Below, in pieces: positions 4,100 to 50,170 of a stretch of DNA of 51,083 nt. The position numbers and the translations under genes are program-made. The stretch comes from Gemmatimonadota bacterium (GTDB lineage: Bacteria > Gemmatimonadota > Gemmatimonadetes > Palauibacterales > KS3-K002). The stretch is taken from positions 4,096,858 to 4,147,940 of the forward strand of contig CP070812.1 in the NCBI GenBank assembly GCA_020344015.1, read 5' to 3'. Under the pieces are notes generated by a model. That model ran no database searches and had not been told where the DNA came from. It worked only from the letters and a program-made list of their open reading frames with translations. Each line of letters starts with the position of its first letter. Within the stretch, counting starts at the first letter, position 1.

Positions 4100-4182
4100 G
4101 GTAACCGGTGACCGGTAATCTCCAATTGGGAACTGCGACTTCCGAGCACCGGCTACTGGTCACCGGCCACCGACCACCGTAT
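4100..4182. repeat. family A heptamer hairpin array 1
   Basis: The spacer between the convergent GTPase and diguanylate cyclase genes. The right half is five in-phase heptamers (ACCGGCT, ACTGGTC, ACCGGCC, ACCGACC, ACCGTAT, 4148-4182). The left half (4100-4120) is the same unit on the other strand, so the two can pair around a loop. The right array touches the TAA stop of the cyclase (4182-4184). Confidence 0.75.
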
Positions 4183-5393
4183 TAGGTGCTGACCCGATTG
4201 CGTCCCGCCCGCTTCGCTCTGTAGAGCGCCTTGTCCGCAGCCTTCAGCACCTTGTCCGGCGTCGTGTGCCTGCCGTTGCGTTCTGCGACGCCGATGCTCA
4301 CCGTGACGGTCAGATTCTTCTTGCCCGGCGACTTGCGTTTTCCGTTCTTCGGTTTGCCGCGCGGTCTGAGGCGGCCGCGGACAGTGAAGGTCGAATCCTC
4401 GATGGTGCCGCGCAGTTCCTCCAAGTCGGACATCACTTCATCTCGTGACTTGCCCGGGAACACCACGGCAAACTCCTCGCCGCCGTATCGATAGGCGCGG
4501 CCGCCGCCCGTGACACGGCCAAGCTTGGCCGCGACCATGCGGAGCACCTGATCGCCGATGTCGTGTCCATGCTTGTCGTTGAATTTCTTGAAGTGATCGA
4601 TATCGACCATGGCGATGCTGAAACGGTTGCGCAGCGCGACGAGTGCGTCGGGGAGTGCGCGACGCGAGGGCAGGCCGGTGAGCTCATCCCGGTAGGCCAT
4701 CCGGTAGCCCGTCTCCATCACGGACAGACCGAGTACCAGACCGCCCGCCATCAGATAGACGGTCGAGACCGGGCTGCCCGATGCCGCGGTCAGGGCCAGG
4801 CATGCGGCGACCACCGCCCAGAGGAACCCGTTCTCAACGGTCCTTTTGCGATAGACAGCCACCGCGGCGGCCACAGTAATGCTGACCGCGAAGACGAGCA
4901 GCTCCGGGTCGGGGATAGCCGCCCAAACGCTAGAAGCGGGACCTATCAGCTCGCCTTGTTGGGTGACGGCCAGCGCCGCACCCTGAGAGCGAAGAAGCAG
5001 AGCAACAGCAGGCGTCGGTACGAGGACCATCGCCAGTTGGGTCAGCCCCCTGGTGGTGAGTACGCCGCGATCGTGGGTCAGCGCCAGCGATGCCAGGATG
5101 GGCGGCAGCAGCAGGGTGGAGGCAGTGCGGGCGATCTGGGCGGTCGGCCCGGGATCGAGCCTCAGCAGCCACTCGACGACGGCCAGCGCCAGAACCGCTG
5201 CGAGGACGCGGCTGCGATGGAACCGCCAGGCGAGGAGCGCCGCCGCCCCGAAGACGGCATAGGGATACCCACGTGCAAGGCCGGTGAGCGTCTGAGGATC
5301 CTTCGCCAGCCGCACGCCGACCACGGCGCCCAGTACGACCAACCCACCGGGCACGACCCACTTGCGTACCTGCCTTAAGTAACTATCCGCCAA
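4182..5393 (-). CDS. membrane diguanylate cyclase (GGDEF)
   Basis: A 403-residue protein that makes cyclic di-GMP from two GTP. Residues 1-225 hold about seven hydrophobic segments forming a membrane sensor; the GGDEF domain follows from RDELTGLPSRRAL (235-247). The metal Asp is in DIDHFKKFND (264) and the active-site signature is GGEEF at 304-308, so it should be active. The RxxD inhibitory site normally five residues before the signature is missing (TGGG instead). A very basic insert (about 340-360, rich in Lys, Arg, Gly and Pro) interrupts the domain. The start used is TTG with no strong ribosome site; a start about 15 codons later is possible. Confidence 0.88.
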   Translation of the reverse strand: MADSYLRQVRKWVVPGGLVVLGAVVGVRLAKDPQTLTGLARGYPYAVFGAAALLAWRFHRSRVLAAVLALAVVEWLLRLDPGPTAQIARTASTLLLPPILASLALTHDRGVLTTRGLTQLAMVLVPTPAVALLLRSQGAALAVTQQGELIGPASSVWAAIPDPELLVFAVSITVAAAVAVYRKRTVENGFLWAVVAACLALTAASGSPVSTVYLMAGGLVLGLSVMETGYRMAYRDELTGLPSRRALPDALVALRNRFSIAMVDIDHFKKFNDKHGHDIGDQVLRMVAAKLGRVTGGGRAYRYGGEEFAVVFPGKSRDEVMSDLEELRGTIEDSTFTVRGRLRPRGKPKNGKRKSPGKKNLTVTVSIGVAERNGRHTTPDKVLKAADKALYRAKRAGRNRVST

Positions 5394-5441
5394 GCGGTTA
5401 CCGCTCAGGATCAGAGCTGCTGGCCAGCAGGACGAGGAGGA

Positions 5442-5465
5442 GGGTGAGGCCCCGAAGGGAGCCTC
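5442..5465 (-). terminator. hairpin after the CsgG-like gene
   Basis: Directly after the stop of the minus-strand CsgG-like gene, GAGGC-CCC / GGG-GCCTC can pair around GAA with one bulged base. No U-run follows, so it may be a weak or Rho-assisted terminator. A perfect 14-base palindrome, CTGCTGGCCAGCAG (5417-5430), lies next to it. Confidence 0.4.
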
Positions 5466-5469
5466 CCGC

Positions 5470-6459
5470 TTAGTTGTTTACCACGAAGCGTACCAGGTCG
5501 TTCCGTTCACAGGTGAACTCGCCGAGGGTTCGCGCGATAGAGTACTTCTCCTCCACGCTGGTGATCTCCAGCCGCCCGAGCTTCTCCTCGATTTGCCCCA
5601 GGTTGAGCCCGGTCTCCGGATCGATCAGCTCTTCGCCTTCGCGGAATGCCTCGAGCACATCGCCCACCTGCATGCCGGACTCAGAACCGGCGTTGATGTA
5701 GACCTGGCCGTCACGAACCGTGACGACCCTGCCGTGCCAAGGCCGGTCGCCGAGCGTGGCCAGGATGTTGGCGACCACCTGCTCGACGGCAGCGCGTGTT
5801 GCCTCACCCAGGGGCGTGTCCTCGAAGCCCTCGGTACCGACATCGAGGACATCGGTATCCAGCGCGACGTGTGAAGACGAGCGTTCCGCCGACCCCTCGC
5901 CCTGGACAGAGGTCGTGACCTGCGAGGTCTGGACATCGTAGATCCGGCTGTCGATGACCAGCCGCGCCTGAACGGTCTTCTTGCCGCCGCCGATCCTAAT
6001 GCCTCCGGCGACCGGGACATCGACAGGCACGGTGACCCCAACCTCGCCACCACGTCCCTTCTCACCGTAGCTGAACGTCGTGATCACCGGACGGATGAAG
6101 AACTGGGCGCCGACGACGCGGCCGGCCTGTACGGCGGTCTCGGGATTGACGGCGCCGCTGTACTGGAGCTCCTGCTCGGCCAGGACATCGGCGATCGCCT
6201 GCCGCTCCACCACCACGAAGCGGTCACTCTCCAACAGTTCGGTGACCATCATCTCCGTGAGCCCCTGGGCAAAGTTCTCGAGGCTCTGATTGTACGAGTA
6301 GCCAGCGGCACCGAACGTGCCCGTGGCCTCGAACAAGCCGGGATCCCAGGTCCCGTCCATCACAGCGACACGGAGCTTGGGGCCTTGCTGTGCCTCGGCC
6401 GTTTCGAGTCCGGCGAAAACCGCCAGGCCAGACAGCATGATGATCGGGATCGCTCGCAT
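5470..6459 (-). CDS. CsgG-like exported protein
   Basis: The ATG at 6459 is preceded by GGGAGGTAAGG, a near-ideal ribosome site, so I use it although the frame is open to 6573; this gives 329 residues. A signal peptide (1-23, ending AEA) has no lipobox Cys. Then comes the CsgG fold: LRVAVMDG, a helix with MMVTELLESDRFVVVER (about 76-92), QAIADVLAEQ, and a strand with GRVVGAQFFIRPVI. A C-terminal domain (about 245-325) with INAGSESGMQVGDVLEAF resembles the one in FlgT-like proteins. CsgG relatives form outer-membrane export pores or act as periplasmic parts of secretion systems. No curli genes are near, so its cargo is unknown. It is divergent from the kinase at 6594. Confidence 0.75.
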   Translation of the reverse strand: MRAIPIIMLSGLAVFAGLETAEAQQGPKLRVAVMDGTWDPGLFEATGTFGAAGYSYNQSLENFAQGLTEMMVTELLESDRFVVVERQAIADVLAEQELQYSGAVNPETAVQAGRVVGAQFFIRPVITTFSYGEKGRGGEVGVTVPVDVPVAGGIRIGGGKKTVQARLVIDSRIYDVQTSQVTTSVQGEGSAERSSSHVALDTDVLDVGTEGFEDTPLGEATRAAVEQVVANILATLGDRPWHGRVVTVRDGQVYINAGSESGMQVGDVLEAFREGEELIDPETGLNLGQIEEKLGRLEITSVEEKYSIARTLGEFTCERNDLVRFVVNN

Positions 6460-6557
6460 CCTTACCTCCCGGCTGCTGTTCTCGGTGGCCCGTTCCTCAG
6501 CTGCGGGCCAATCTAGGCAGCCGCCCCCGACACGACAACGAGCGGGGAGACCCGAGA

Positions 6558-6586
6558 TTGACCTGTCTTCCAAGGGGTGTTTAGCT
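6558..6586 (+). promoter_or_regulatory. possible promoter of the Ser/Thr kinase gene
   Basis: TTGACC, a 17-base spacer and TTAGCT lie just upstream of the kinase ATG at 6594. The -10 match is poor. If this is the promoter the transcript would be almost leaderless, which fits the absence of a well-placed ribosome site. Confidence 0.25.
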
Positions 6587-6593
6587 TCATACC

Positions 6594-19018: not shown

Positions 19019-19139
19019 GGTGATCGGTAGCCGGTGACCGGTGGCCGGTAAGTTGGAGCGCTCAACGTTTCAAGTTCGAACTTACCGGCCACCGGCTACT
19101 GGCGACCGCTTACCGTCTACCGCCCACCGTCTACAGCTC
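19019..19139. repeat. family A heptamer hairpin array 2
   Basis: Facing arms 19019-19054 and 19079-19114 can pair, with a perfect 17-bp inner stem (19038-19054 with 19079-19095). The right side is eight in-phase heptamers (19084-19139: ACCGGCC, ACCGGCT, ACTGGCG, ACCGCTT, ACCGTCT, ACCGCCC, ACCGTCT, ACAGCTC). The TAG stop of glutamine synthetase (19131-19133) and its last two codons lie inside this array. Confidence 0.85.
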
Positions 19140-20549
19140 CAGATGTTGCTCGAGATCGAGCGGCGAAATGTAGAGCCTGAACTTCTCGTCGTCGGCGAGC
19201 TTCGTCTCGAGAATCTTGTCGAGCACGTCCTCGCCGATTGTCTTCCTCAAGAGGTCGCTACGCTCCGCCACCTGGACCGCCTCGTAGAGGTCGTGTGGCA
19301 ACGACTGCACGCCGAGTCTCTCGCGTTCGACGGCCGTCAGTTCGTACAGGTCCTGGGTCATCGGGTCCTGGAGTTGCAACTTGCGATCGAGTCCATCGAG
19401 TCCGGCGGTCAACATGACGGCGAATGCCAGATACGGGTTGCAGGCAGCATCGGGGAAGCGAAGCTCGATGCGCGTGGCCACTTCCTTACCCGGTTTGTAC
19501 ATCGGCACGCGGACGAGCGCCGATCGGTTTCGCTCCGCCCAGGCGATGTAGACCGGGGCCTCGAAGCCCACGACCAGGCGCTTGTAGGAGTTGTACCACT
19601 GGTTGGTGATCAGTGCCAACTCGCGCGCGTGGTCGAGCACGCCGGCCAGGAACTGCTTGGCGGTAGTTGACAGGTGGTAGCTCTCTTCGGCTGAGTAGAA
19701 GGCGTTGGTCTTCTCATCGCTGAAGATCGACAGGTGAGTGTGCATGCCGCTGCCGTTTTCGCCGAATAGAGGCTTCGGCATGAAGGTCGCGTAGACGCCG
19801 TTGCGTCGCGCGATCTCCTTCACCAGGTACTTGTACGTCTGGAGGCCGTCGGCCATGCGCAGAGCTTCCTGATACTTCAGGTCGATCTCATGCTGGCTGG
19901 GCGCGACCTCGTGGTGCATGTACTCCACCGGAATTCCCATCGACTCCAGCGCGAAGACGGTGGCCTCGCGCAGGTCATCACCGAGGTCGACGGGATTGAT
20001 GTCGAAGTAGCCTGCCCGGTCGATGGTCGAGGGGCGATCCTCATCGGCGAAGTAGTAGTATTCGGCTTCCGGCCCGATGTTCATGTGTGCGAAGCCGTGA
20101 TCCTTCAGTCGGGCCAGAGTCCGCTTGAGGACCTCGCGGGGGTCGTTGGTATACGAGCTGCCGTCCGGGTTGCGGATCTCAGCGAACATGCAAATCGACC
20201 GTGAGCCGCCGACCTTGAACGGAATGACCTGAGCGGTTGAGGCGATGGGGAACGCCACCATGTCGCTCTCCTGGATCCGCTGGTAACCCTCGATCGAAGA
20301 CCCGTCGAAGCCCATCCCCTCCTCGAAGGCACCCTCGATCTCGGGCAACGTCACCGCGAACGACTTCAGGAAGCCGAGCAGATCGGTGAACCACAGCCGG
20401 ATCGAGGTGACTCCGTGGTCGGAGCAGTACTTGATGACGTCAGCGGGGCTTGAGAGATCGAGTCCGCCGTAGCACTCCATCTCATGGACGTACTTGCCCA
20501 TACCCTCGCGGAATCGCTCGATCTGAGCCAGGAACTCGTTCATTTGCAT
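19131..20549 (-). CDS. glnA: glutamine synthetase, type I
   Basis: ATP-dependent ligation of ammonia to glutamate. I start at the ATG at 20549, which has GGAGG nine bases upstream, although the frame runs to 20780; this gives 472 residues, normal for type I. Visible are the N-terminal beta-grasp region (LWFTDLLGFLKSFAV), MGFDGSSIEGYQRIQESDM, the catalytic metal ligands in GPEAEYYYF, HHEVAPSQHEIDLKY, the ATP block FMPKPLFGENGSGMHTH, NRSALVRVP and the Glu-flap region. DLYEL near the C-terminus puts a Tyr where adenylylated enzymes have theirs, but no adenylyltransferase is nearby. It is divergent from the phosphodiesterase gene across a 315-base spacer. Confidence 0.95.
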   Translation of the reverse strand: MQMNEFLAQIERFREGMGKYVHEMECYGGLDLSSPADVIKYCSDHGVTSIRLWFTDLLGFLKSFAVTLPEIEGAFEEGMGFDGSSIEGYQRIQESDMVAFPIASTAQVIPFKVGGSRSICMFAEIRNPDGSSYTNDPREVLKRTLARLKDHGFAHMNIGPEAEYYYFADEDRPSTIDRAGYFDINPVDLGDDLREATVFALESMGIPVEYMHHEVAPSQHEIDLKYQEALRMADGLQTYKYLVKEIARRNGVYATFMPKPLFGENGSGMHTHLSIFSDEKTNAFYSAEESYHLSTTAKQFLAGVLDHARELALITNQWYNSYKRLVVGFEAPVYIAWAERNRSALVRVPMYKPGKEVATRIELRFPDAACNPYLAFAVMLTAGLDGLDRKLQLQDPMTQDLYELTAVERERLGVQSLPHDLYEAVQVAERSDLLRKTIGEDVLDKILETKLADDEKFRLYISPLDLEQHLEL

Positions 20550-20727
20550 GGACTTGCGCCTCCGATGGTTTGGGGACAGCCTCATTCTTTCGGGAAGACG
20601 GACGCCGGGTGGCGCGCTCGCGCCGAATCTAGTAGGCGCCGGGGAAAATGCGAGGGGGTCTGCAGCGGGCGCCGAAGCCCTGGCAGAACCCGCCGTAGGG
20701 TGCCAGATTCGGGCGGCGGACTGGAAA

Positions 20728-20864
20728 GTAATCGGTGGCCGGTAGTCGGTGATCAGTGGCTCCGGTTCGGCGCAAAGCACCGAGGCCGATCACCGATCAC
20801 CGACTACTGATCACTGATTACAGACTACTGATTACCGACTACTGACAACCGACTACCGATCCCC
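20728..20864. repeat. family A heptamer hairpin array 3
   Basis: Part of the 315-base divergent spacer between glnA and the phosphodiesterase gene. The right side holds ten consecutive in-phase heptamers (20792-20861, consensus ACYGAYY), ending three bases before the ATG at 20865. The left arm (20728-20770) is the complementary form and can pair with part of it. The rest of the spacer (20550-20727) shows only the glnA ribosome site and no clear promoter. Confidence 0.85.
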
Positions 20865-22469
20865 ATGCTCACGAACACAAAGCGCATTCTTAGCATCGCC
20901 GTCTGGGGGCTCCTGCTCGCGTCCTGCAGCGCTCCGCTTCAGGGACAGCGAGACATACCTCCGGTCAAGCTCGTCGTCCTGATCTCAGTGGATCAGCTGC
21001 CGCAGTATCTTCTGGAACGTTACGACACGCTGTACAGCGGCGGGCTGCGGCGCCTGCTCGATCAAGGCCGCAGCTACACGCGGGCGGAACACGACCATGC
21101 CTTCACCGTGACAGCGCCGGGGCATGCGACGCTGGCCACCGGAATGGTGCCGGCACGTCACGGCATCGTCTACAACGAGTGGTACGAGCGCGAGGGCGGG
21201 GAGTGGCGGTATGTGCACAGCGTCAACGATGGCGACGAGCGGATCGTCGGCTTTCCGCACCTCGCGGGGAAGTCACCTAGGAAGTTAGAGGTAGCAGCTC
21301 TTCCCGATTGGCTGGCCGCGGCCAACAGCAACTCAAGAGTTTTCACTGCTTCGGGCAAGTCGCGCGCGGCGGTTCTCATGGCCGGCCGGACTCGAGGGCA
21401 CGTCTATCATTTCGAGGATGACGTCGGCCGCTTCGTGACGTCGACCTACTACCGCGATGCGGACCCCGAATGGGTGGCACGATTCCACGAAGATGTTCTC
21501 TCACAGTTCTTCAGCGACTCAACCTGGGAACTGACCGTGCCACAAGCGGCTCACCGGCTGGCCAGGGCCGACTCGGCCGAGTTCGAGTACCGCGGAACAC
21601 ACACAGCCTTCCCTCACAACTACCGGCAAGAAGTGGACGAGGAGGAGGCCGGCGACCCTCAAGAGTTCTACAACTGGTGGGACCACACGCCTGCCCTCGA
21701 CGCCGCCGTCCTCGCGTTCGGCGAAGCTGCGGTGAACGAGCTCTCGCTCGGCCGGCGCGGCTCGGTCGATTACCTGGCGCTAGGGCTCTCGCAGTTGGAC
21801 CGGGTCGGTCACCGCTTCGGCCCGCTCAGCCTGGAACAGCTGGACGCGATCCTGCGATTAGACCGTGCGCTGGGCGAGTTCCTCGAGTTTCTCGACAGTA
21901 CGGTCGGTGAAGGGCGTTACGTGGTCGGATTCTCGTCGGACCACGGGGTGCTGCCGATACCCGAGTACCCGGACGAGCTGGGACTGTCGAAGCGACGGAT
22001 CACCAGTGACGAGTGGCGGGCCGTGCGCGACGCAGCGGGGAACGCTGCGGCATCGAGCGGTTCGCCGACGGAGGCTGAGGCAGCGCTTGTCGAAGCGCTC
22101 GAGGCGGCCGACTTCATCGCCGACGTGATGACGCTCGACGAGCTGGCGAGCGGCGAGCCGGCGGACTCGTTCGTCGCCCTCTACCAGCGGTCGTATTGCC
22201 CGGTACGCTTGGCAGGGTCGCTGGCCCGGCAGGGTCTCGTGGTCCGCCTGGTCGAGGGTGCCCACTCGTCGTCCGACGCCACTACCCACGGCACGCCTTA
22301 CGTCTACGACCGGCACGTTCCTCTTATTCTCATGGGACCCGGCGTCCCGGCCGGCTCGTCGGACGATGCGGTTCGCACCGTGGACATGGCGCCGACGCTG
22401 GCCGAGCTGGCAGGTATTCCCTACCCCGACGACCTGGATGGGCGGCCGCTCATCCGAGCCGCCCGATAG
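20865..22469 (+). CDS. lipoprotein alkaline phosphatase/phosphodiesterase (PafA/NPP type)
   Basis: A 534-residue enzyme of the alkaline phosphatase superfamily. A lipoprotein signal ends LLAS-C21, so it is probably membrane-tethered in the periplasm. First metal ligand is in ISVDQLP (D43), the nucleophile is Thr83 in TVTAPGHATLATG, and later ligands are in DRVGHRFGP, SSDHGVLPIPEYP and THGTPYVYDRHVPLILMGPG. A Thr rather than Ser nucleophile fits PafA-type phosphomonoesterases and nucleotide pyrophosphatases. The ATG lies right behind the heptamer array with no ribosome site in between. Confidence 0.88.
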   Translation: MLTNTKRILSIAVWGLLLASCSAPLQGQRDIPPVKLVVLISVDQLPQYLLERYDTLYSGGLRRLLDQGRSYTRAEHDHAFTVTAPGHATLATGMVPARHGIVYNEWYEREGGEWRYVHSVNDGDERIVGFPHLAGKSPRKLEVAALPDWLAAANSNSRVFTASGKSRAAVLMAGRTRGHVYHFEDDVGRFVTSTYYRDADPEWVARFHEDVLSQFFSDSTWELTVPQAAHRLARADSAEFEYRGTHTAFPHNYRQEVDEEEAGDPQEFYNWWDHTPALDAAVLAFGEAAVNELSLGRRGSVDYLALGLSQLDRVGHRFGPLSLEQLDAILRLDRALGEFLEFLDSTVGEGRYVVGFSSDHGVLPIPEYPDELGLSKRRITSDEWRAVRDAAGNAAASSGSPTEAEAALVEALEAADFIADVMTLDELASGEPADSFVALYQRSYCPVRLAGSLARQGLVVRLVEGAHSSSDATTHGTPYVYDRHVPLILMGPGVPAGSSDDAVRTVDMAPTLAELAGIPYPDDLDGRPLIRAAR

Positions 22470-26375: not shown

Positions 26376-26526
26376 ATTCGCGGAGGGAATCTCGGATTCG
26401 GGACTCGGGGATTCGCCCCAAGTCCCCCATTCCACGGATTCCACGGATGCCTCGGATTCACAACTCCCATTCCCCAACTCCCTGACTCGCCGAATCCCGG
26501 AATCCCCGATTCCCAGACTCCCATCA
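26376..26526. repeat. family B hairpin array 1
   Basis: The spacer between the radical SAM gene and the kinase-PAP2 gene is mostly degenerate GGATTCGGG-type units: G-rich on the left (26385-26415) and C-rich on the right (26416-26523). GGGACTCGGGG can pair with CCCCAAGTCCC as an inner hairpin. The right side includes CCACGGATTCCACGGAT, shared with array 2 of this family, and runs up to the TGA stop of the radical SAM gene (26524-26526). Confidence 0.75.
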
Positions 26527-27600
26527 CGCCAAACCCAAAAGATGTCGGTTCCCTATCCGCACGTTCACCAGGCCGGCGGCGCGCGCCGCCGCTTCCGCTT
26601 CACGCGCCTGCCGCGCCGATGTGAACGGCAGGTCGCTCATGTAGAAGTTGGGGGCGAAAGCCAGCAGCGAATACGGGATCTCCGGATCGATCGAGGCGAT
26701 GAACCCCGCGATCCTGCCTACCTGATCCGCATCTACATACTCTGGCACCAAAAGGGTACTGGCCACCACGAGTGGTGCCCCGCGTCGCTCGGCGCTCCGC
26801 TCCGCTGCGCGCGCGAAGTTCTCGAGCGTCCGACGGTTCGAGATGCCCGCCAGCGCACGGTGCAGCTCTTCGTCGAAAGCCTTCAGGTCGAACTTGATGC
26901 AGCCGCCGGTCTCGAGCGAGTAACGGACCGCCCGATCGAGTAGCTTCGGGTGCATCGTCCCGGCCGTCTCCCAACACACTCGCACTCCGCGCCGGGCGAG
27001 TTGCTTCGAAGTCGCCAGCGCGTGCGGCATCTGCGAGGCGGGATCGCCGCCGAAGTAGCAGACGCAGAAGGTGCGAGCGTCGGCGACCGCCGCGAGCTCA
27101 TCGGCACTCATCGTCCCGGCCTCCGTCGGCGAGACCTTCCTGAAGTGCCAGTTCTGACAGAAGAGACAGTCGGCGGTACAGCTGCAGTAGAAGACGGCCA
27201 AGTTGTGACAGCCGCGGTGCTCCTGGCCCTCACACACCCAGTCGGCGACGCAGTTGGTCGGCAGCGGATCGCGGTACCAGTGAAGCAGCCCGCGCGACGG
27301 CGTTCCCGCCAGATGAACCAACCTGCCAGCGCGAGCCGACCGCAGCCCGCAGAAGCCACGTTCCCCTTCCCCGATCACGCATTCGTTTCCGCATAGCGTA
27401 CAGCGGATGCCGCCTCTGCTGCGCGGCGGCTGCGCCGGGAGCCCGAACTCGGCGCGCTCCTCGGCGTGAGCCGCCTCCAAACGCGGCCGCACATCGGCGA
27501 AGCCAGATCGTACGCAACCGGCACAGACGCCGAGCGCCCGAGACACACCTGGCAAGCTCCGGCGACAGTGCGAGCAACTGGCGACTCTCGAATCATGCAC
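26524..27600 (-). CDS. PflA-like radical SAM protein with N-terminal zinc-ribbon cysteines
   Basis: A 358-residue enzyme. Cysteine pairs (C9/C12, C26/C29) and then C67, C70, C74 and C84 suggest two small metal-binding ribbons. The radical SAM cluster is CTADCLFC (C141, C145, C148), in the CX3CX2C pattern, placed within a (beta/alpha) barrel: FCVCYFGGDPASQ, VCWETAGTM, IKFDLKAFDEELHRAL, ASTLLVPEYVD. It looks like the pyruvate formate-lyase activase-related branch seen with AmmeMemoRadiSam proteins. No target glycyl-radical enzyme is in the window. Start is GTG at 27600 with AAGGG upstream at a long spacing. Arrays of the same repeat family flank the gene on both sides. Confidence 0.8.
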   Translation of the reverse strand: MHDSRVASCSHCRRSLPGVSRALGVCAGCVRSGFADVRPRLEAAHAEERAEFGLPAQPPRSRGGIRCTLCGNECVIGEGERGFCGLRSARAGRLVHLAGTPSRGLLHWYRDPLPTNCVADWVCEGQEHRGCHNLAVFYCSCTADCLFCQNWHFRKVSPTEAGTMSADELAAVADARTFCVCYFGGDPASQMPHALATSKQLARRGVRVCWETAGTMHPKLLDRAVRYSLETGGCIKFDLKAFDEELHRALAGISNRRTLENFARAAERSAERRGAPLVVASTLLVPEYVDADQVGRIAGFIASIDPEIPYSLLAFAPNFYMSDLPFTSARQAREAEAAARAAGLVNVRIGNRHLLGLA

Positions 27601-27630: not shown

Positions 27631-27890
27631 TGAATCCGGAATTCGGGAATTCGGGAATTCGGGAATTCGGGAATGGGAATTGGGGATTAAGGGATTGGCA
27701 ATTAGGAATCCGTGGAATCCGTGGTGTCCGTGGTATTGGGGAGTTGGGGAATCGGGGATTGGCAGATCATGTCTACTTCCCTCAGTCCCCTATCCCACGG
27801 ACTCCACGCATTCCACGGATTCGGGCGATCCGACTCTGGAATCCCGAATTACCGAATCTCAGAATCCCCGAATCCCTCAATTCCCAACTT
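27631..27890. repeat. family B hairpin array 2 (longest)
   Basis: Almost the whole spacer between the Asp-box gene and the radical SAM gene. It starts with four perfect GGAATTCG units (27638-27669), then diverged 7-9-base units. The arms 27707-27733 and 27795-27821 match 25 of 27 as an inverted repeat. The right side ends within the Asp-box gene: its last codons and TGA stop (27877-27879) are part of the array. Confidence 0.85.
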
Positions 27891-30800
27891 CCCTCTCCAG
27901 CGCCGCGAGCGCGCGGGCGAACTGCTCCTCCAGGACCCGCAGGGCGCGTCTGTGGTCCTGGGTGGGAGGGTAGAGACTCCCCTGCCTCACACCACTGCCG
28001 TTGAAGTTACTCGCCAGATTGTTGGCCTGGCGGCGGATTCCGCTCAGTCGGCGCGCCAGGGCCGTTACCGTTTCGGTTCGCGCACTCAGTTCTGCGGGCG
28101 CATCCGGGGCGGCGACCCGCTCCCTGAGCGCACTGGCCCGCTGATCGGCGTTCCATGCCCTTCGCTGTAGGTCGAGCACAGCCAGCAGGAAGGTCTCGCG
28201 GTCCTCCCACTCTTCCAGCGATATGGGCAGCAACGGGTCGCCCCAGACCTCCACTGACTGCCCTAGGCCAGGCACTCCCTCCGCCCGCAGCTCGACAATG
28301 AAGTTACCCGGCGCTACGAATGGGCCTCGTGGAGACAGCGGGTGCGGCAGCTCGGGCTGCGGCTCGCTTTCGCCGGAGGGCGCCTGGAAGGGCGGTGGCT
28401 CGTGGCGCAGGTCCCAGAAGACCCGGTGGATCACCCCCGCCGTGCCCGGGCCCTCGAGTCGCCGGACCACCTCGCCGCGCCGGTTCCTAACGGTGAGCGT
28501 GACCGCTTCGACGGAGCGGTCGAGGTAGTAGCTGATAATCGCCTCCTCCGGAGGGTTCTCCCCGGCGTATGCGGCCTGCCCTCGGTAGCTCGTGTCCTTC
28601 CAGTACTGGAAGATCGTGGCGGGACGGATCGGGTAGAGGTGCGCCCGCGCTGAGGCGCCCTCCGAGGGCCAATTGGCCAGCGCCGAGAGGTCGTCGAGGA
28701 TCCAGATACTGCGGCCGTGCGTACCGACGACCAGGTCGTCATTCAGGGGGTGGATCGCCAGGTCATCGTAGAGCGTCGTCGGCAGGTTCGGCATGCAGCG
28801 CTGCCAGTTGTCGCCTGCGTCGAACGAGATGAAAAGGGCATGCTCCGTACCAAGGAACAGCAGGTTCGGGCTCCTCGGGTGCTCGATGATCACGTTCACC
28901 GAACCCTCGGGCGGCAAACCGTCGATCAGCGGCGTCCAGCGGGCGCCGAAGTTTTCCGTCTTGAACACGTAGGGCGCGAAGTCGCCGTCGCGATGAGCGT
29001 CGAAGGTCGCGTACGCCACGCCGCGGCCGCCAGCCGACGCTATCACACGGCTTACATAGGTACCGGGCGGCAAGTCGGGCACGTTGTCGGAGACCTCGGT
29101 CCAGTTGTAGCCGCCGTCCCGGGAGACCTGCAGGTTCCCGTCGTCGGTGCCGACCCAGAGGACCCTCCGATCGAGCGGTGATTCGGCGATCGTCACGATC
29201 TCGCCGTACGACGAGGTCCCATCGTTCTTCGACAGCATTGGCTGCGAGCCGAGTACGCCCATCAGCGTCAGAGTGTCACGGTCGATCTGGCGCGACAGAT
29301 CTTCGGTGCGCTCCCAACTGACCGCGCGGTCGCGCGAGATGAACAGTCGATCGCCACCCAAGTACACCACCCTCGGGTCGTGCCGGGACACCAAGACCGG
29401 CGTCACCCAATCGAAGCGATACGACGGCTCGCCGGCGGGCGGTATCGGTTCGATGTCGAGGTGGTCGCCGGTCTCTGGGTTTAGCCGAACCAGCGTTCCG
29501 TTCTGGGCGGCGCCGTAGACGAAGCGGTAATCGCTGGGGTCCGCCTGGTGGTACATGCCATCGCCGAAACCGATCTGCCGCCAATCGTCGTTGATGATAC
29601 CGATCCAGTGGCGTGTTCGGCTGGGTCCGACCCACGAGTGGTTGTCCTGCATACCGCCGTAGATGTAGTAGGGGTCGCGCGTGTCGACGCCGATCGCATA
29701 GAACTGACCGATCGGCAGGTTGTTGATGCGGATGAACGTTTCACCGCGGTCCCAAGTCTCGTACAGTCCGGCATCGCCGACCAGGTAGAAGTGTTCAGAA
29801 TCGGTCGGGTCGATCCATAGATCATGGAAGTCGCTGTGCACTCCCACATCATAGGTGGGCCGTGTGGGCATCGTGCGGAACGTGCGGCCTCCATCCTCAC
29901 TCTTATAGAAAGATGTCGCGAGCACGTATATGCGGTCATCGTTCGTCGGGTCGATGTATATGTGGCTGTAGTACATCGGCCGCGGATTGAGATCGTTCAC
30001 CTTCTCCCACGTCGCGCCGCCGTCCTCGCTGCGATAGACGCCCGAATCCTCTGCATGCTGGACTATGGCGTTCAGGACCTGCGGGTCCGTCCGCGCGATG
30101 GCTAGACCGATCCTTCCTTTGTCGCCCGCCGGGAGGCCGTTCTCGAGCTCGCGCCAGGTACCCCCCCCGTCGGTCGTCTTGTAGATACCGCTGCCGGGGC
30201 CACCGCCGTTGAACCCCCAGGTCCGGCGAAGCCGTTGATAAGCTGCTGCGTAGAGCGTGTTCGGGTCGGAGGCATCCATCTCCAGATCGACGACGCCCGT
30301 CAGCGTGTCGACGAAGAGAACCAGGTTCCAGGTGGCGCCGCCGTCCTCGGTCTTGTAAACGCCGCGCTCCGGACTCGGGGCCCACAGGTTCCCCAGCGCC
30401 GCCACGTAGGCGACGTCGGGGTCCTCAGGGTGGACGGCGATGCCGCCGATATGGCGAGTCGCATCGAGGCCCAAATGCGTCCAGGTCGCGCCGGCGTCGA
30501 GCGAGCGGTAGACGCCGTTGCCCCAAGACGTGCTCTGGCGGTTGTTCTGCTCGCCGGTGCCGGCCCAGAGGATCTGTGGATTCGACGGCGCGATGGCCAC
30601 GACCCCGAACGTGCTCACCGGCTGGTCGTCGAAGATAGGCGTCCAAGTGGTGCCCTTGTTCGCCGTCTTCCAGATGCCGCCCGACGCCGTGGCCAGGTAC
30701 ACCGTCGAGGGGTCGTGGGGCAGCGCCTCGACATCGTGGATGCGGCCGCCGGTGACGGCGGGCCCAATCGAGCGAAAGCGTAGCTCCTGCAGGAGCTCGG

Positions 30801-30900
30801 GCGTACGGGCTGCCTCCTGGGCCGCGGCATCCCTCGAGATCGGGATCAGCAGCGTAACCACGGCAGCGATTACGGTCGTCGATCGGCAGACGGAAGTCAT
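27877..30900 (-). CDS. exported Asp-box (BNR/VPS10-sortilin-like) beta-propeller protein
   Basis: A 1007-residue protein with a signal peptide (about 1-27). At least nine Asp-box units (pattern SxDxGxTW) are visible, among them SLDAGATW, TEDGGATW, TTDGGGTW, SEDGGATW, SEDGGRTF, SRDGGYNW and SFDAGDNW. These are the loops of two stacked propellers like those of sortilin and exo-sialidase-type proteins. A C-terminal region (about 770-1007) has a beta-sandwich-like part and a helical tail. Similar proteins are often named glycosyl hydrolases, but no catalytic residues are evident to me, so binding or peptide-related roles are as likely. AAGGAG eight bases before the ATG supports the start. Confidence 0.8.
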   Translation of the reverse strand: MTSVCRSTTVIAAVVTLLIPISRDAAAQEAARTPELLQELRFRSIGPAVTGGRIHDVEALPHDPSTVYLATASGGIWKTANKGTTWTPIFDDQPVSTFGVVAIAPSNPQILWAGTGEQNNRQSTSWGNGVYRSLDAGATWTHLGLDATRHIGGIAVHPEDPDVAYVAALGNLWAPSPERGVYKTEDGGATWNLVLFVDTLTGVVDLEMDASDPNTLYAAAYQRLRRTWGFNGGGPGSGIYKTTDGGGTWRELENGLPAGDKGRIGLAIARTDPQVLNAIVQHAEDSGVYRSEDGGATWEKVNDLNPRPMYYSHIYIDPTNDDRIYVLATSFYKSEDGGRTFRTMPTRPTYDVGVHSDFHDLWIDPTDSEHFYLVGDAGLYETWDRGETFIRINNLPIGQFYAIGVDTRDPYYIYGGMQDNHSWVGPSRTRHWIGIINDDWRQIGFGDGMYHQADPSDYRFVYGAAQNGTLVRLNPETGDHLDIEPIPPAGEPSYRFDWVTPVLVSRHDPRVVYLGGDRLFISRDRAVSWERTEDLSRQIDRDTLTLMGVLGSQPMLSKNDGTSSYGEIVTIAESPLDRRVLWVGTDDGNLQVSRDGGYNWTEVSDNVPDLPPGTYVSRVIASAGGRGVAYATFDAHRDGDFAPYVFKTENFGARWTPLIDGLPPEGSVNVIIEHPRSPNLLFLGTEHALFISFDAGDNWQRCMPNLPTTLYDDLAIHPLNDDLVVGTHGRSIWILDDLSALANWPSEGASARAHLYPIRPATIFQYWKDTSYRGQAAYAGENPPEEAIISYYLDRSVEAVTLTVRNRRGEVVRRLEGPGTAGVIHRVFWDLRHEPPPFQAPSGESEPQPELPHPLSPRGPFVAPGNFIVELRAEGVPGLGQSVEVWGDPLLPISLEEWEDRETFLLAVLDLQRRAWNADQRASALRERVAAPDAPAELSARTETVTALARRLSGIRRQANNLASNFNGSGVRQGSLYPPTQDHRRALRVLEEQFARALAALEREVGN

Positions 30901-43483: not shown

Positions 43484-43587
43484 GGAGGAGGGAGAACCAC
43501 TCGCTCCGGGCTCGCGCCACCTCCCGAGAAGGGGCCTCACCCTCGGTGGTGAGCTCGCGACCTACGCGAGGCGGTTCTCCCTCCTCC
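43484..43587 (+). terminator. long inverted repeat between GH15 gene and mutM
   Basis: A perfect 15-bp inverted repeat (GGAGGAGGGAGAACC at 43484-43498, its complement at 43573-43587) encloses 74 bases that also contain shorter complementary stretches. It fills the spacer after the GH15 stop. No U-run follows; it may end transcription or protect the 3' end. Confidence 0.5.
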
Positions 43588-43641
43588 TCCGTGTCTGCAA
43601 CCCTTGGCATGCGCTGACGACGATGCCTGCACGGAGGTAGT

Positions 43642-44532
43642 GTGCCGGAACTGCCTGAGGTAACGGTCTACGTCGAGGCGCTGGAGCGCCGGATTCGCGG
43701 CGCGACGTTAGAACGCGTTCGGCTGCAATCGCCATCTCTCCTCAAGACATTCGATCCTCCCATCTCGGCGGCAGAAGGCCAGCGTGTTCTTGGTTTGAGG
43801 AGGATGGCCAAGCGGATCGTCTGGGAGTTGGACGGCGAGCTCTACATGGTCTTCCACCTGATGATCACGGGCCGCCTGCGCTGGCGTGAGAGAGGGACGG
43901 CGGTTCCGAGAAAGCCAGGCCATGCCGCGTTCGATTTCGCCAACGGCTCGGTGCTGCTGACGGAGGCCGGGAGGGCGAAGCAGGCATCGCTGCACCTGGT
44001 TCACGGCGCCACCTCACTGGCGTCCTTCGAGCGCGGGGGCATCGACCCGCTCGAGGCGTCGCTCGAGGAGTTTCGAACCGCCCTCGTGCGCGAGAACCGC
44101 TCACTCAAACGCGCGTTGACCGACCAGCGGATCCTCGCCGGGATCGGCAACGCCTACTCCGACGAGATACTACTGGTGGCGCGGCTCTCGCCGGTCAAAC
44201 GGACGCATCAACTGAGCGAAGACGAATTGGTTCGGCTCTACAGGGCCGTTCGCGAGACACTGCAAGGGTGGACCGATCGGCTACGTTCCGAGGTCGGTGA
44301 CGGGTTCCCGGAGAAGGTGACCGCTTTCCACCCGGCGATGAAGGTGCACGGGAAGTACGGGCAGCCGTGTCCACAGTGCGGCTCGCCGATCCAACGGATC
44401 GTCTATGCGGCCAACGAGACGAACTACTGTGCCAGTTGTCAGACTGATGGGAAGCTGCTTCGCGATCGGGCGCTGTCGCGGTTACTGAAGGACGACTGGC
44501 CGTCGACGCTGGAAGAACTTGAGGGCGGCTAG
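43642..44532 (+). CDS. mutM: formamidopyrimidine-DNA glycosylase (Fpg/MutM)
   Basis: A 296-residue base-excision repair enzyme that removes oxidised purines and nicks the DNA. It starts at GTG with GGAGGT four bases upstream. Met removal would expose the catalytic Pro of PELPEV; Glu follows at position 3 and the catalytic Lys is Lys57 in RRMAKRIVWEL. The H2TH domain includes LTDQRILAGIGNAYSDEILL, and a zinc finger (CPQC ... CASC) follows. About 30 residues extend past the finger, more than in the E. coli enzyme. It is convergent with the aldolase gene across a hairpin array. Confidence 0.93.
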   Translation: MPELPEVTVYVEALERRIRGATLERVRLQSPSLLKTFDPPISAAEGQRVLGLRRMAKRIVWELDGELYMVFHLMITGRLRWRERGTAVPRKPGHAAFDFANGSVLLTEAGRAKQASLHLVHGATSLASFERGGIDPLEASLEEFRTALVRENRSLKRALTDQRILAGIGNAYSDEILLVARLSPVKRTHQLSEDELVRLYRAVRETLQGWTDRLRSEVGDGFPEKVTAFHPAMKVHGKYGQPCPQCGSPIQRIVYAANETNYCASCQTDGKLLRDRALSRLLKDDWPSTLEELEGG

Positions 44533-44535
44533 TTA

Positions 44536-44668
44536 TTGGGAATTCGGCAATCCATAACTAATTGAATAGTCGACCAATTGAATACTCGAGATCAGAATGG
44601 CAGCGGTTCTCAATTCGAGTAGTCTATGGTTCTATTAGTCTATTAGTCATGGATTGCCGAATTCCCAA
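44536..44668. repeat. hairpin array between mutM and fba
   Basis: A perfect 20-bp inverted repeat: TTGGGAATTCGGCAATCCAT at 44536-44555 and its complement at 44649-44668. Inside are AT-rich 7-8-base units (AATTGAATAGTCG, TATTAGTC) that also pair imperfectly. It starts four bases after the mutM stop and ends 11 bases before the aldolase stop, so it can serve both convergent genes. GGAATTCGG links it to the family B arrays. Confidence 0.9.
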
Positions 44669-44679
44669 CACCAGAATCT

Positions 44680-45756
44680 TCAGGCAACGTCGACGTCTTT
44701 GCAGAGGTAGACGTCCTGAATAGCGTGGAACATCTCGACGCCCTGCTCCATGGGTCGCTGGAACGTCTTGCGACCTGAAATGAGTCCCATGCCGCCGGCA
44801 CGTTTGTTGATCACCGCAGTGCGAACGACCGAGCCGAGGTCGCCCGTGCCCTTCGAGGCGCCGCCGGAGTTGATCATGCCGATGCGACCCATGTAGCAGT
44901 TGGCGACCTGCCACCGCGTCCAATCCACGGGGTTATCGGCGACCAACTCGTCATAAACGAGCTGGGACGTCTTACCGAAGCTTAGGGCGTTGTAGCCGTC
45001 GTTATGGGTGGGAAGCTTCTGCTTGACGATGTCCGCCTCGATGGTAACGCCGAGATGGTTTGCCTGTCCCGTCAGGTCGGCGGCTGTCGAGTGATCCACG
45101 CCGTCCTTTTTGAACGCAGCATTGCGCAGGTAGCACCAGAGGAAGGTTGCCATACCCAGCTCGTGCGCCCGCGAAAAGGCCTCGGAGACCTCCTGCAGCT
45201 GGCGGTGCGACTCTTCGGCACCCCAGTAGACCGTCGCACCCACCGCGGCGGCACCCAGCTCCCACGCCTGCTCGACCGATGCGAAGGGCACCTGATCGAA
45301 CGTGTTCGGGTAGGTCAGTAGCTCGTTGTGGTTGAGCTTGACGATGAAGGGGATCTTGTGGGCGTACTTGCGTGACACGACGCCCAGCACACCGAGTGTG
45401 GAAGCGACCGCGTTGCAGCCGGCCTCGGACGCCAGTTTGACGATGTTCTCGGGATCGAAGTAGATCGGGTTGGGCGCGAAGGACGCCGCGCCCGAGTGCT
45501 CTATGCCCTGATCGACCGGCAAGATCGACAGGTAGCCCGTACCACCCAGTCGGCCGTGGTCGATGATGCGCTGCAGGCTGACCAGCACCTGCGGGTTACG
45601 ATCGGAAGCCGCGAGTATGCGGTCGATGAAGTCGGGGCCCGGCAGGTGAAGCTGGTCCTTCGTGATCCCCTTGCAGGCAAAACTCAGAAGCGATTCCGCC
45701 TCGTCGCCGAGCAGGTCCTCGATCAGCGCCAACGATCCAGCGGTCTTTGTTGCCAT
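44680..45756 (-). CDS. class I fructose-bisphosphate aldolase (DhnA/FbaB type)
   Basis: A 358-residue aldolase of the archaeal/bacterial DhnA group. Visible are [49 protein letters not shown], and the phosphate-binding C-terminus NSGGAS and [12 protein letters not shown]. It splits or forms fructose-1,6-bisphosphate, linking glycolysis or gluconeogenesis to the FBPase encoded upstream. It is the last gene of the minus-strand sugar cluster, 42 bases after pgl. GGGAG upstream supports the ATG at 45756. Confidence 0.9.
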
Positions 45757-45798: not shown

Positions 45799-46545
45799 CT
45801 ACCGAGATTCTGGGCCGAGCAGCCGACCTGCCCCTTTGTCTATATACCAGTGCAGCTCTCCGCCCTCGGGGCGGATCAGCTGGACGGGGTAGCGGAGCGG
45901 CTCGCCCGGGCCTTCAAGAACCTCGCGCAGCGTCTCCGCCTTCTCCCCGCCCGTCACCAGCAACAGTATACAAGAAGCGTTGTTAAAGGTAGGGTACGTC
46001 AATGTGATGCGGTGGGCGCCCAGCCCCTCGACCCAGTGGGCGACGGCCAGGCGGCGCCGCTCTTCCAGCGCCTCACTTCCCGGGAAGAGAGAGGCCGTGT
46101 GCCCGTCGGCGCCCATCCCCAGATAGACCAGATCGAAGCGGGGGAACTCGCTATCCGCCAGCCCGAAGTGGCGCCGCAGTTCGGTCTCGTAGTCGAGGGC
46201 CGCCTCTTGCGGATCGCGATGCTCGCCGTGGATCCGGTGAACGTTCTCTCGAGGTAGCTCGAGCTTCGAGAGCAGCGCCTCGTTCGCCGCCCCGAAGTTG
46301 CTGTCGGCGTGGTCCGGCGGAACGGTGCGCTCGTCGCCCCAGAAGAAGTGAACTCGATTCCAGGGGATGGCGTCGCGGTAGGGCTCGGCGGCGAGCAGCT
46401 TGAACAGCCGCAAGGGAGTGCACCCACCCGACAGCACGACATGCAATAGCCGCGCCGATTCGACCACCTGCCGCGCCCTCGCGGCGAATACGTCGGCGGC
46501 GGCCTCGGCCACCAGATCGGGATTTTGGAAGACGCGAATCGCCAC
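45799..46545 (-). CDS. pgl: 6-phosphogluconolactonase
   Basis: A 248-residue NagB-fold enzyme that hydrolyses 6-phosphogluconolactone, the product of Zwf. Signature blocks are VVLSGGCTPLRLFKLL, FFWGDERTVPPDHADSNFG, LGMGADGHTASLFPG and VTGGEKAETLREVLEGP. The start is GTG one base after the fbp stop, with GGGAG inside the end of fbp, so translation is coupled. It fits the surrounding pentose-phosphate genes. Confidence 0.93.
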   Translation of the reverse strand: MAIRVFQNPDLVAEAAADVFAARARQVVESARLLHVVLSGGCTPLRLFKLLAAEPYRDAIPWNRVHFFWGDERTVPPDHADSNFGAANEALLSKLELPRENVHRIHGEHRDPQEAALDYETELRRHFGLADSEFPRFDLVYLGMGADGHTASLFPGSEALEERRRLAVAHWVEGLGAHRITLTYPTFNNASCILLLVTGGEKAETLREVLEGPGEPLRYPVQLIRPEGGELHWYIDKGAGRLLGPESR

Positions 46546-46546
46546 A

Positions 46547-47551: not shown

Positions 47552-47567
47552 GTCGCGCCTGGCCTCG

Positions 47568-48560
47568 TTACGCCGCCGCTCCGAGGCTGGCCGCGTAGCG
47601 GGCGGCGCCCAAGAGCGCGGTGTTCTTGTTGGTGATCACGCGCACCGGTGTGGCTTCGAGGAGTGGTCGCATGCGACCCTTGTCGAGGAACGCGTTCATG
47701 AACGGCGGTTCTCTCAACGCATCGATGATCTTGGGAGCGATGCCACCGCCGACGAACACGCCGCCGGTAGCCAGCATCTTGAGGGCGAGGTTGCCAGCCT
47801 CGGCACCGTAAAGCTCTGCGAAGAGCTGGAGGGTCTCGACACAGATCTCGCAGCGTTCTCCCAGAGCGGCCTTGGTGATCACCGGAGCCGGGTCCCCGCC
47901 CTCACCGACCTCGTCGTCCAGCCAGGCGGGCTTGGCGGCGTCCCGGTACTCGAGCAGAAACTCGAAGATGTTCATGAAGCCGGGGCCGGATAGGATGCGC
48001 TCCCAGCTGACCCGGCCGAAGCGCTGGGAGAGAAAATCGAGTAGCGCGACCTGTCGTTCGCCTGTGGGACCGAAGGAGGTGTGGCCTCCCTCGGTGGCAA
48101 AGGGGTGGTACGCCTGTCCATCCCAGTAGAGGCCCGCCTGACCCAGGCCCGTGCCCGCGGCGATGAGTGCCGCGTTGCCGCTGGCTGTCTCGCTGCCCGT
48201 GTTGAGCACCTCGAGGTCCTGCGGCCCGAGCACGGCGATGCCGTAGGCCTGCGCTTTCAGGTCGTTGATCAATGCGAGGGCCTCGACCTGGGCGGCGCCG
48301 GCGAGCTTCGAGGTCTCGACCAGCCAGGGCAGGTTCGTGGTCTGCGCCCGGCCGTCCTTCACAGGCCCGGCCACGCCGAAGCAGGCGCGCTGGCACTCGA
48401 TGCCGTGGCCCTTCATGAATCCCGATACGATCTCCTCCAGCGTGCCGAATTCGCGGCTTGGAAAGGTCTCGGCGACAAGCGCTTGGTACTGGGTCAGCTG
48501 CACGTCGTAGACGGTCAACCTGGCGTTGGTGCCGCCGATGTCGCCGGCGAGAATCTTCAT
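47568..48560 (-). CDS. glk: glucokinase
   Basis: A 330-residue Glk of the E. coli type: ATP loop [10 protein letters not shown] at the start, GVAGPVKDG, the catalytic Asp in [19 protein letters not shown] and the [14 protein letters not shown] block. It phosphorylates glucose for Zwf; glucose could come from the GH15 enzyme. Its ATG overlaps the zwf stop (ATGA), so the two are coupled. Confidence 0.93.
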
Positions 48561-50077
48561 CCGAGGGTCCTCCAGCTGCGACCGTCGCGTCGCAAGAGGT
48601 CGTCCGCCGCCTGCGGCCCCCAGGTCCCTGCCGCATAGTTGGGGAACTCGCGCGGCTGCAGCGCGCTCCAGACATCGAGGATCGGGTTCACGACGCTCCA
48701 GGCGGCCTCCGCGTTGTCGCCACGCTGGAACAGGTTGGCATCACCGTTCATGCAGTCGTAGAGGAGCGTCTCGTATCCGGTCGTCGGCGTCGCGTGGAAG
48801 TAGTCTTCGTTGCAGAAGTCCATATCGACGGCGCCGATCTGCATCAGCGGACCCGGAACCTTGGCGCCGAAGGAGAGCGAGATCCCCTCGTCCGGCTGGA
48901 TCCTCAGACAAAGCACGTTCGGCTGCAACTGATCGACCGGTGTATTCGCGAACAGCACCAAAGGCACGCTCTTGAATTGGATGGCGATCTCGGTCACCCG
49001 CTTTGGCAGGCTCTTTCCAGTCCGCAGGTAGAAGGGCACACCGGCCCAGCGCCAGTTGTCGATCATCAGCTTGAGCGCCACATACGTTTCGGTCGAGGAG
49101 TCGGGAGCGACCCGCTCCGCCGAGCGATAGGCGATCACCCGCTCGCCGTCCGGCATCTCACCCTCGCCGTATTGGCCACGCACCGCCTCTTCCAGGACCT
49201 CATCGGGCTCGATCGGGTTCACGGCGCGGAAGATCTTGCCCTTCTCGTTGCGGACGGCATCAGCCTCGAACGAGACCGGCGGTTCCATAGCGATGAGTGC
49301 CAGGAGCTGGAAGAGATGGTTGGGCACCATGTCGCGGAGCGCGCCTGCATGGTCGTAGTAACCGCCGCGCGTCCCGACATCGACCCGCTCCGCCACTGTA
49401 ATCTGCACATTGTCTACGTAGCGGCGGTTCCAGATCGGCTCGAAGATCGCGTTGGCGAAACGGAAGACCAGGATGTTCTGGACCGTCTCTTTGCCGAGGT
49501 AATGGTCGATGCGGTAGATCTGCGACTCGTCGACGACCTCGAGGAGCTCGCGGTTGAGCATGCGCGCCGATTCGTGGTCGTGGCCGAACGGCTTCTCGAC
49601 GACGAGGCGCCGCCAGCGGCCGTCCCCTTCGCGGGCGAGGCCGACCTCGTCCAAGCGCCGCGGGATCTCGGAGAAGAAGCTGGGCGGCGTCGACAGATAA
49701 TAGAGGTAGTTGCCCCTGGTCCCCCGCTCCTTGTCGACCTGCGCCAGCGTCTCCTTCAATCGCACGTAGGCTTCGGGGTCGTTGAGGTCACCCACCACGA
49801 AGTAGACCCGCTCGGCCAGCCAGTCCCATATCTCCTGGCGGAACTCCCCCGTCAGGTGGCGGCGCGCCTCGTCCCCCAACCGCTTGCGATACTCATCCTC
49901 ATCGAGACGGCGTGCGAACCCGACGATGGCGAACTCGTCGGGCAGCAGCCCGGCCTCGGCCAGGTTGAAGAGCGCAGGTATGAGCTTGCGGCGCGTCAAA
50001 TCGCCGGCGGCGCCGAAGATTACTATCGCGCAGGGCGGGGCGGGTTTGGCGGTGTTGTTGTGCGAATCGCTCATCAT
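48557..50077 (-). CDS. zwf: glucose-6-phosphate 1-dehydrogenase
   Basis: A full-length (506-residue) enzyme for the first oxidative step of the pentose-phosphate pathway. The cofactor fold is [20 protein letters not shown], and the substrate signature is [13 protein letters not shown] with its catalytic His, followed by [11 protein letters not shown] and [10 protein letters not shown]. Start choice is open: ATGs at 50077 and 50074 and a GTG at 50083 are in frame, none with a strong ribosome site. A family A hairpin array separates it from gnd upstream; glk overlaps its 3' end. Confidence 0.95.
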
Positions 50078-50094
50078 TCTCACGTCTGGGTTCT

Positions 50095-50170
50095 AGTGGC
50101 CGGTGGCCGGTAGTCGGTGGCCTGTGGGCACATCGTCAGTTACCGGCTACTGGCTACCGGCTACCGTCTA
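50095..50170. repeat. family A heptamer hairpin array 4
   Basis: The spacer between gnd and zwf. The left arm (50095-50131) and right arm (50135-50170) are complementary forms of the same heptamer. On the right, four in-phase units (ACCGGCT, ACTGGCT, ACCGGCT, ACCGTCT, 50142-50169) run into the TAG stop of gnd (50168-50170), at the same repeat phase as in glnA. Confidence 0.85.

Follow-up and report, generated by a model that had tools for sequence, protein, structure and literature searches.

Stop-codon-anchored heptamer arrays and their genome-wide unit dialect in two Gemmatimonadota species

Seven intergenic spaces in a 51,083-nucleotide stretch of the Gemmatimonadota bacterium contig CP070812.1 (positions 4,096,858 to 4,147,940; hereafter the window) hold arrays of short, degenerate units that face each other. 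In the principal family, F1, tandem copies of the heptamer CGGTRRY are followed by copies of its reverse complement. These heptad pairs start at stop codons, and most of the pairs that could be compared flank the same genes in a sister species, although the two genomes differ in the base favored at one unit position. We tentatively propose that they are held in place, and to one genome-wide variant, by a putative trans-acting factor. The source genome (G000) is one contig of 4.81 Mb, in which the window is G000:C1:4096858-4147940; the sister species (G001) belongs to the same genus.

Results

The Arrays Are Genuine and Fall into at Least Three Families

An earlier sequence-only reading of the window described facing arrays of short units in seven spacers, and these are present in all seven, with periods of 7, 8 and 9 assigned by Tandem Repeats Finder. 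That reading recognized two families and no consensus beyond the period. We find at least three families, the largest of which has a consensus. F1 (CGGTRRY then its reverse complement, period 7) occupies four of the seven spacers (4100, 19019, 20728 and 50095). The F3/F4 family, comprising GGGGATTC / GGAATCCGT arrays with periods of 8 and 9, occupies two (26376 and 27631), and F5, a separate foldback family with fixed ends, lies in the spacer at 44536. There are further period-7 arrays outside F1, some of them CGACNNY-like.

The arrays are beyond chance. Three successive YRGTRRY units are matched 12 times in the window and not once in 100 dinucleotide shuffles, and the three-unit pattern CGGTRRYCGGTRRYCGGT has 78 matches in G000 (42 on the plus strand and 36 on the minus strand) versus 1 for the reversed pattern. 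Intergenic DNA makes up 11% of the 800 kb surrounding the window and holds 23/25 period-7 runs and 12/12 period-8 runs there. A hairpin score of at least 14 is reached by 46/435 spacers in 800 kb of G000 and by 2 after shuffling. Phase had been described as kept for up to ten units; an unslipped run of 11 is present at window 20789-20865. Rfam 15 gave no matches in the window at the gathering score.

F1 Arrays Are Anchored at Stop Codons

The gene context of F1 was determined over 1.40 Mb in G000 and 1.03 Mb in G001, that is, in only two genomes. Beyond two 800-kb blocks, these stretches were picked for the F1 pattern, which is blind to C versus T at unit position 7. Genes were called with our own caller, and no annotation was used. 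The sample contains 79 F1 arms in G000 and 51 in G001. Neighboring arms within 150 nt are arranged plus then minus, with the CGGT arm first, in 36 cases, minus then plus in none and on the same strand in 3, such that the CGGT arm leads in 36/36 facing pairs.

Arm clusters with a called gene on either side define 91 F1 loci, clusters lacking one being omitted. The sequence-only reading had named enrichment at gene ends as a finding that would support a function, and such enrichment is clear: 62 loci lie between tandem genes, 24 between convergent genes, 5 between divergent genes and 0 inside genes, compared with 755 tandem, 154 convergent and 277 divergent background spacers of at least 40 nt (chi-square p 9e-6). 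At the tandem loci, the median offset of the array start from the upstream gene end is -3 nt, 50/62 starting within 15 nt of it, and the next start codon follows at a median of 41 nt. When every periodic family is pooled across the two 800-kb blocks, 25/32 tandem hairpins begin no more than 15 nt from a stop, versus 10/63 non-periodic hairpins (p 4e-9).

Read as CGG-TRR-Y, the F1 unit contains TAA, TAG, TGA or TGG. There are 73 stops within 60 nt of an array start, and 49 fall on the T of TRR; 32 of the 73 lie inside the array, where this register is nearly forced, being the only place in which the unit can hold a stop. Among the 41 stops upstream of the first recognized unit, 19 are in array register, versus 1 in 7 expected. 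Of 110 gene ends that face an array, 33 have array units as the last part of the coding sequence. The intrusion is by one unit at 24 of these, which at some sites could be due to chance, and by two or three units at 9, and the encoded tails include ...VVSSQ and ...VAGSR. At some genes, therefore, the array extends into the reading frame and provides the stop.

Most F1 Arrays Compared Remain beside the Same Genes in the Sister Species

Orthologues were defined as reciprocal best hits with an identity of 55% or higher and coverage above 60%. We found 15 orthologous F1 site pairs, whose flanking proteins have a median identity of 85.8%. When each F1 spacer with both flanking genes conserved was read into the other genome's unselected 800-kb block, at least three units were present in both species at 10/12 sites (13 syntenic rows, one site seen from both G000 and G001 being entered once). 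None of five F1 spacers with one flank changed keeps an array (Fisher p 0.003), and background spacers carry one at 23/464 in G000 and 15/485 in G001. The two misses are the window 4100 spacer, which has a two-unit remnant in G001, and G000 3932901. At the two F1 spacers beside glutamine synthetase, synteny is broken in G001 and the array is absent; downstream of this gene, other Gemmatimonadota carry ordinary GC-rich hairpins where G000 has its array. The period-8/9 family and the foldback family resemble F1 in layout but not in its tested interspecies retention.

One Unit Position Distinguishes the Two Genomes

The two species spell the F1 unit differently at position 7, where the C:T ratio is 202:109 in G000 and 30:198 in G001. 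Counted by locus, 34 are mostly C, 14 mostly T and 6 tied in G000, and the corresponding numbers in G001 are 1, 35 and 1. Positions 2 and 5 are alike in the two genomes, and position 6 differs slightly (p 0.048). The shift is seen site by site, with less C at position 7 in G001 at 14/15 orthologous sites. Outside the arrays, the intergenic base preceding CGGTR has C:T ratios of 254:185 in G000 and 202:145 in G001, the CCGG, TCGG and GGCC ratios are also close, and neither genome is depleted of CCGG. General mutation bias, or bias from CCGG restriction, is therefore an unlikely cause of the dialect, because there is no matching shift outside the arrays.

Arrays are also more alike within a genome than between genomes. 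When arms are matched for best similarity between genomes, orthologous sites score 0.558 and non-orthologous ones 0.541 (p 0.17), whereas different loci of one genome reach 0.692 and 0.647. This is the pattern of concerted evolution. Conversion of long tracts between loci was rejected as its source, as shared strings are not in excess over a first-order unit model: 13 locus pairs share an identical 3-unit string where the model gives 29, and 16 where it gives 25, in the two genomes; for 4-unit strings the values are 1 versus 1.7 and 2 versus 2.2. Relative to shuffled unit order within arms, 2-unit strings are shared in excess (243 versus 174 and 152 versus 96) and 3-unit strings slightly so (13 versus 6.7 and 16 versus 9.4).

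The Unit Rather Than the Exact Hairpin Appears to Persist

Paired elements fold well, 29/34 having a z below -3, but a pair made up of arms from two separate loci of the family would fold too. Over 35 loci, real arm pairs have a mean score of 18.80, compared with 18.39 (sd 0.51) for arms permuted within the genome. Inverted duplication, in which one arm is copied from the other, thus fails as a general rule, since swapped arms pair equally and only 4/35 loci score above 95% of their swaps. The sense strand of 22 tandem loci has 34 G.U pairs, a type that would be tolerated in RNA, versus 60 A.C mismatches (p 0.01). An RNA hairpin kept by compensatory change, for which the sequence-only reading had proposed a covariation check, finds little support here, with swapped arms scoring equally and G.U fewer than A.C.

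Part of that check came out in favor of pairing. In eight tests of unit-type agreement between left and right arms, the arms agree at one position per genome, namely position 7 for G000 (rho 0.57, permutation p 0.001) and position 6 for G001 (rho 0.70, p 0.001); at position 5 they are opposed in both genomes (rho -0.44 and -0.61). The stem shows no clear gradient of decay with distance from the loop. We read this as persistence of the unit and not of the exact hairpin, and the paired arms may fold in DNA or in RNA. At two orthologous site pairs (G000 2547094 / G001 2744861 and G000 2555183 / G001 2736739), the loop enclosed by the F1 arms contains an ordinary terminator-like hairpin in both species.

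Array Sites and Neighboring Genes in the Window

The first F1 pair of the window (4099-4179; plus arm 4099-4119, minus arm 4138-4179) occupies a convergent spacer flanked by a TGS/MMR_HSR1 GTPase gene (3100-4089, +) and a GGDEF gene (4182-5354, -). The second (19025-19134; plus arm 19025-19052, minus arm 19081-19101) is downstream of glutamine synthetase (19131-20549, -), and its degenerate units continue to the stop codon of that gene, which is itself in array register. A divergent spacer between glutamine synthetase (-) and a phosphodiesterase gene (20865-22469, +) holds the third pair (20726-20865), with a plus arm at 20726-20760 and a minus arm of 11 units at 20789-20865. The predicted ATG of the phosphodiesterase, at window 20865, abuts this array, with no evident room for a ribosome-binding site. 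The fourth pair (50094-50166; plus arm 50094-50121, minus arm 50139-50166) separates the 6PGD gene (50168 on, -) from the G6PD gene (48557-50077, -), and the orthologous G001 spacer also has an array.

Both F3/F4 pairs, of period 8/9, lie at 3' ends. One (26377-26532; hairpin arms 26377-26415 and 26491-26532) is at the end of a radical SAM gene (26524-27546, -), and the other (27638-27892), a 114-pair imperfect hairpin, is at the end of a Sortilin-Vps10/BNR gene (27877-30900, -). The F5 foldback (44534-44670; arms 44534-44597 and 44607-44670) fills a convergent spacer between an Fpg-type glycosylase gene (43642-44532, +) and a DeoC-type aldolase gene (44680-45756, -).

Distribution of the Families and Tests for Mobile Elements

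The sequence-only reading would have given up its proposal had the arrays been confined to this contig; they occur also in the sister species and in other genera. A four-unit F1-like match in other spellings is patchy in the phylum (28/395 genomes). For other genera the reversed-pattern control is uninformative, since the stricter pattern is palindromic in order and many four-unit matches fit both patterns. At 35 loci from other Gemmatimonadota genomes, placed on raw open reading frames (ORFs), 5/5 facing pairs run plus then minus; their position at gene ends was judged by eye and is uncounted. Two genomes of one genus in another family of the class, G093 and G153, have 184 and 167 matches to the stricter pattern. 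Their arrays (e.g., locus L256) consist of near-perfect TRGTGAY units, also facing, and one begins at a TGA stop.

F3 has 101 matches in G000, 10 in G001, 60 in G004 and 0 in five other genomes. Among the matches listed, close opposite pairs of F3 and F5 run plus then minus, like F1. The 24-nt end of F5, allowing at most 3 mismatches, is matched 40 times in G000, 5 times in G001 and not at all in six other family members, so F5 combines fixed inverted ends with lineage-specific copies. Beside the F1 arms, a search for a common core revealed only a weak preference.

No transposase had been noted near the arrays. We find none among the 19 window ORFs scanned with Pfam and none of the Y1/RAYT type (PF01797) in all of G000 and G001, although this family is present in 5/24 genomes tested; these searches cover part of that claim. 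Repetitive extragenic palindromic (REP) elements and bacterial interspersed mosaic elements (BIME) are, like F1, palindromic, intergenic, present in many copies and close to gene ends, but they are not known to form period-7 arrays, and an identity with F1 is rejected given that their RAYT (Y1) transposase is missing from G000 and G001.

Several other repeats were observed in passing. A non-periodic hairpin family (GGAGGNGGGAGAACCACTCGC-like, with the other arm GCGAG..GGTTCTCC) is common to both species, with sites at about 43484-43600 in the window, at G000 4140341 and 4490111 and at G001 3491273. At G000 4201488 and 4432214, 21-bp inverted repeats (GGTCGCTAAMACCAGCTCCGC) that are perfect or nearly so, with spacings of 95 and 134 nt, resemble the ends of a small mobile element. 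Inverted arrays of period 6 (CTCGTG-like and ATCGCC-like) lie at or near gene ends at G000 4008801, 4310714 and 4700940.

Discussion

We propose a trans-acting reader because most of the sites compared stay beside the same genes while the favored spelling of the unit differs between genomes. Such a factor would recognize the unit in either DNA or RNA. Slippage in 7-nt steps would renew the arrays, which would extend into the 3' ends of genes until a TRR of the unit fell in frame and closed the reading frame, and selection would see the unit rather than the exact hairpin. A reader would account for the fixed sites, the one-position genome-wide difference and the independent arms, and slippage bounded by flanking coding sequence would add the abutment to stop codons. 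Several points weigh against this proposal. A reader alone leaves the CGGT-arm-first order unexplained and does not by itself explain the abutment to stops, and no binding factor has been identified, none having been searched for. The excess of 2- and 3-unit strings over shuffled order means that short-patch copying or slippage could homogenize the arrays, and neighboring units resemble one another, in G000 at position 7 and in G001 at positions 2, 6 and 7. The dialect is loose, with 14/54 G000 loci mostly T, and it rests on two genomes. Both window F3 spacers are without an array in G001, where the F5 spacer holds a simple hairpin.

A neutral origin, in which 7-9-nt arrays arise and are renewed by polymerase slippage under relaxed selection (just after stops and at a distance from promoters) and the dialect results from a bias in short-patch copying or repair, strikes us as somewhat unlikely. 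Growth limited by flanking genes would fit the stop-codon boundaries, the few divergent spacers and the units inside coding ends; the likeness of neighboring units and the several periods and families found side by side also suit slippage, and a published proposal that it causes heptamer excess is quoted in PMC4692102. A directional change at one unit position over many fixed sites, with no matching bias outside the arrays, argues the other way, as do shared 3- and 4-unit strings that do not rise above the first-order unit model and an array kept at 10/12 syntenic spacers. It is unlikely, too, that the heptads form a gene-end code, in which CGGTRRY at stops is read, or written, by a protein or templated enzyme whose specificity drifts between species, dozens of fixed sites following. 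If it were so, sites would change in concert unit by unit, the arrays would even provide stop codons and C-terminal tails, and the system would have its analogues in uptake-sequence dialects matched to a receptor or in the drift of telomere repeats, here in a bacterial form.

We are more doubtful still that the arms fold in mRNA to end transcription or shield the 3' end, with pairing itself under selection. Placement after stops, enrichment between convergent genes, the low folding z of most paired elements, the arm agreement at position 7 (G000) and position 6 (G001) and the ordinary GC-rich hairpins after glutamine synthetase in other Gemmatimonadota are all consistent with such hairpins. 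Yet arms swapped between loci score nearly as well as real pairs, G.U is outnumbered by A.C on the sense strand, the arms disagree at position 5, a separate terminator-like hairpin sits within the loop at two orthologous site pairs, and a T-run was no criterion for the elements counted. A dispersed foldback, resembling miniature inverted-repeat transposable elements, whose copies inserted after stops and then decayed is a good fit for F5 (window 44534-44670). As a general explanation it is very unlikely, and for F1 it is disfavored: no strong common core follows the F1 arms, F1 sites are common to both species rather than lineage-specific, and Y1_Tnp, the only transposase family searched genome-wide, is absent from both genomes. 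Among the three possibilities that the sequence-only reading had offered, a protein-binding array fits best, a transcript-end structure is weakened, and a repeat-making process could still play a part.

Arrays of this kind are already known from Xanthomonas and Geobacter. In the accessible parts of their report, Rehm et al. (2015; PMC4692102) describe intergenic arrays of G-rich heptamers, GGGAATC / GGGGA(C/T)T, in Xanthomonas and Nostoc. Two xanthomonads have 70 and 75 facing pairs. The Xanthomonas heptamers are located near or over stop codons, where the G-rich strand is the coding strand, and rarely between divergent genes; 83% are in the same gene context in a second species, with varying length and sequence. 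F1 resembles these repeats in its tandem 7-nt unit, intergenic location, facing pairs near or over stops and few divergent sites (5/91). The Rehm-type unit forms G-quadruplexes, whereas CGGTRRY, judging by its consensus, cannot hold GGG. Nostoc heptamers, unlike F1, include few paired repeats, and the same parts of PMC4692102 describe no counterpart of the unit dialect, the concerted change or the stop-codon register. F3 units (GGGGATTC) do contain G tracts of the quadruplex type, but the period of F3 and F5 is 8 and thus outside the 7-nt definition of Rehm-type repeats.

The accessible text on Geobacter metallireducens (PMC2700814) describes paired heptanucleotide sites as a putative global-regulator class (15/16 consist of five MTYCTGA heptamers in tandem, depicted on two strands); its site classes are mostly paired, and GGGACCG heptamers occur at 49 places. 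The units differ from F1, some copies lie inside genes, and that text describes neither gene-end anchoring nor a dialect. TAACTGA repeats of Beggiatoaceae, Cyanobacteria and Bacteroidetes, for which protein binding is suspected, share with F1 an intergenic heptamer, many sites and a patchy phylogeny; as far as the accessible sections go, they are direct repeats in one orientation just before start codons, inverted in 1/170 (MacGregor, 2015; PMC4679880). F1 does not share this start-codon placement, being anchored at stop codons. In the open-license literature searched, no report of such arrays in Gemmatimonadota came to light, nor any account of heptamer arrays that evolve in concert or have a unit dialect.

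DNA uptake sequences of Neisseriaceae are single rather than tandem and occur also within genes, whereas the F1 loci examined are all outside genes. Their dialects resemble F1 in that a short sequence with a species-specific spelling is present at many sites, but the accessible part of PMC3630211 gives thousands of copies, compared with 78 three-unit F1 matches in 4.8 Mb. What is new in F1 is the CGGTRRY unit itself, which lacks GGG tracts, together with its dialect and its register with stop codons.

There is no consensus on what intergenic heptamer arrays do in Xanthomonas, Nostoc, Geobacter and Beggiatoaceae, quadruplexes having been proposed for the G-rich sort. F1 arrays have the same layout as the G-rich heptamers, with a unit incapable of GGG quadruplexes. 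Fixed sites together with a genome-wide dialect provide a measurable signature that separates reading of the unit, selection on the hairpin and neutral slippage.

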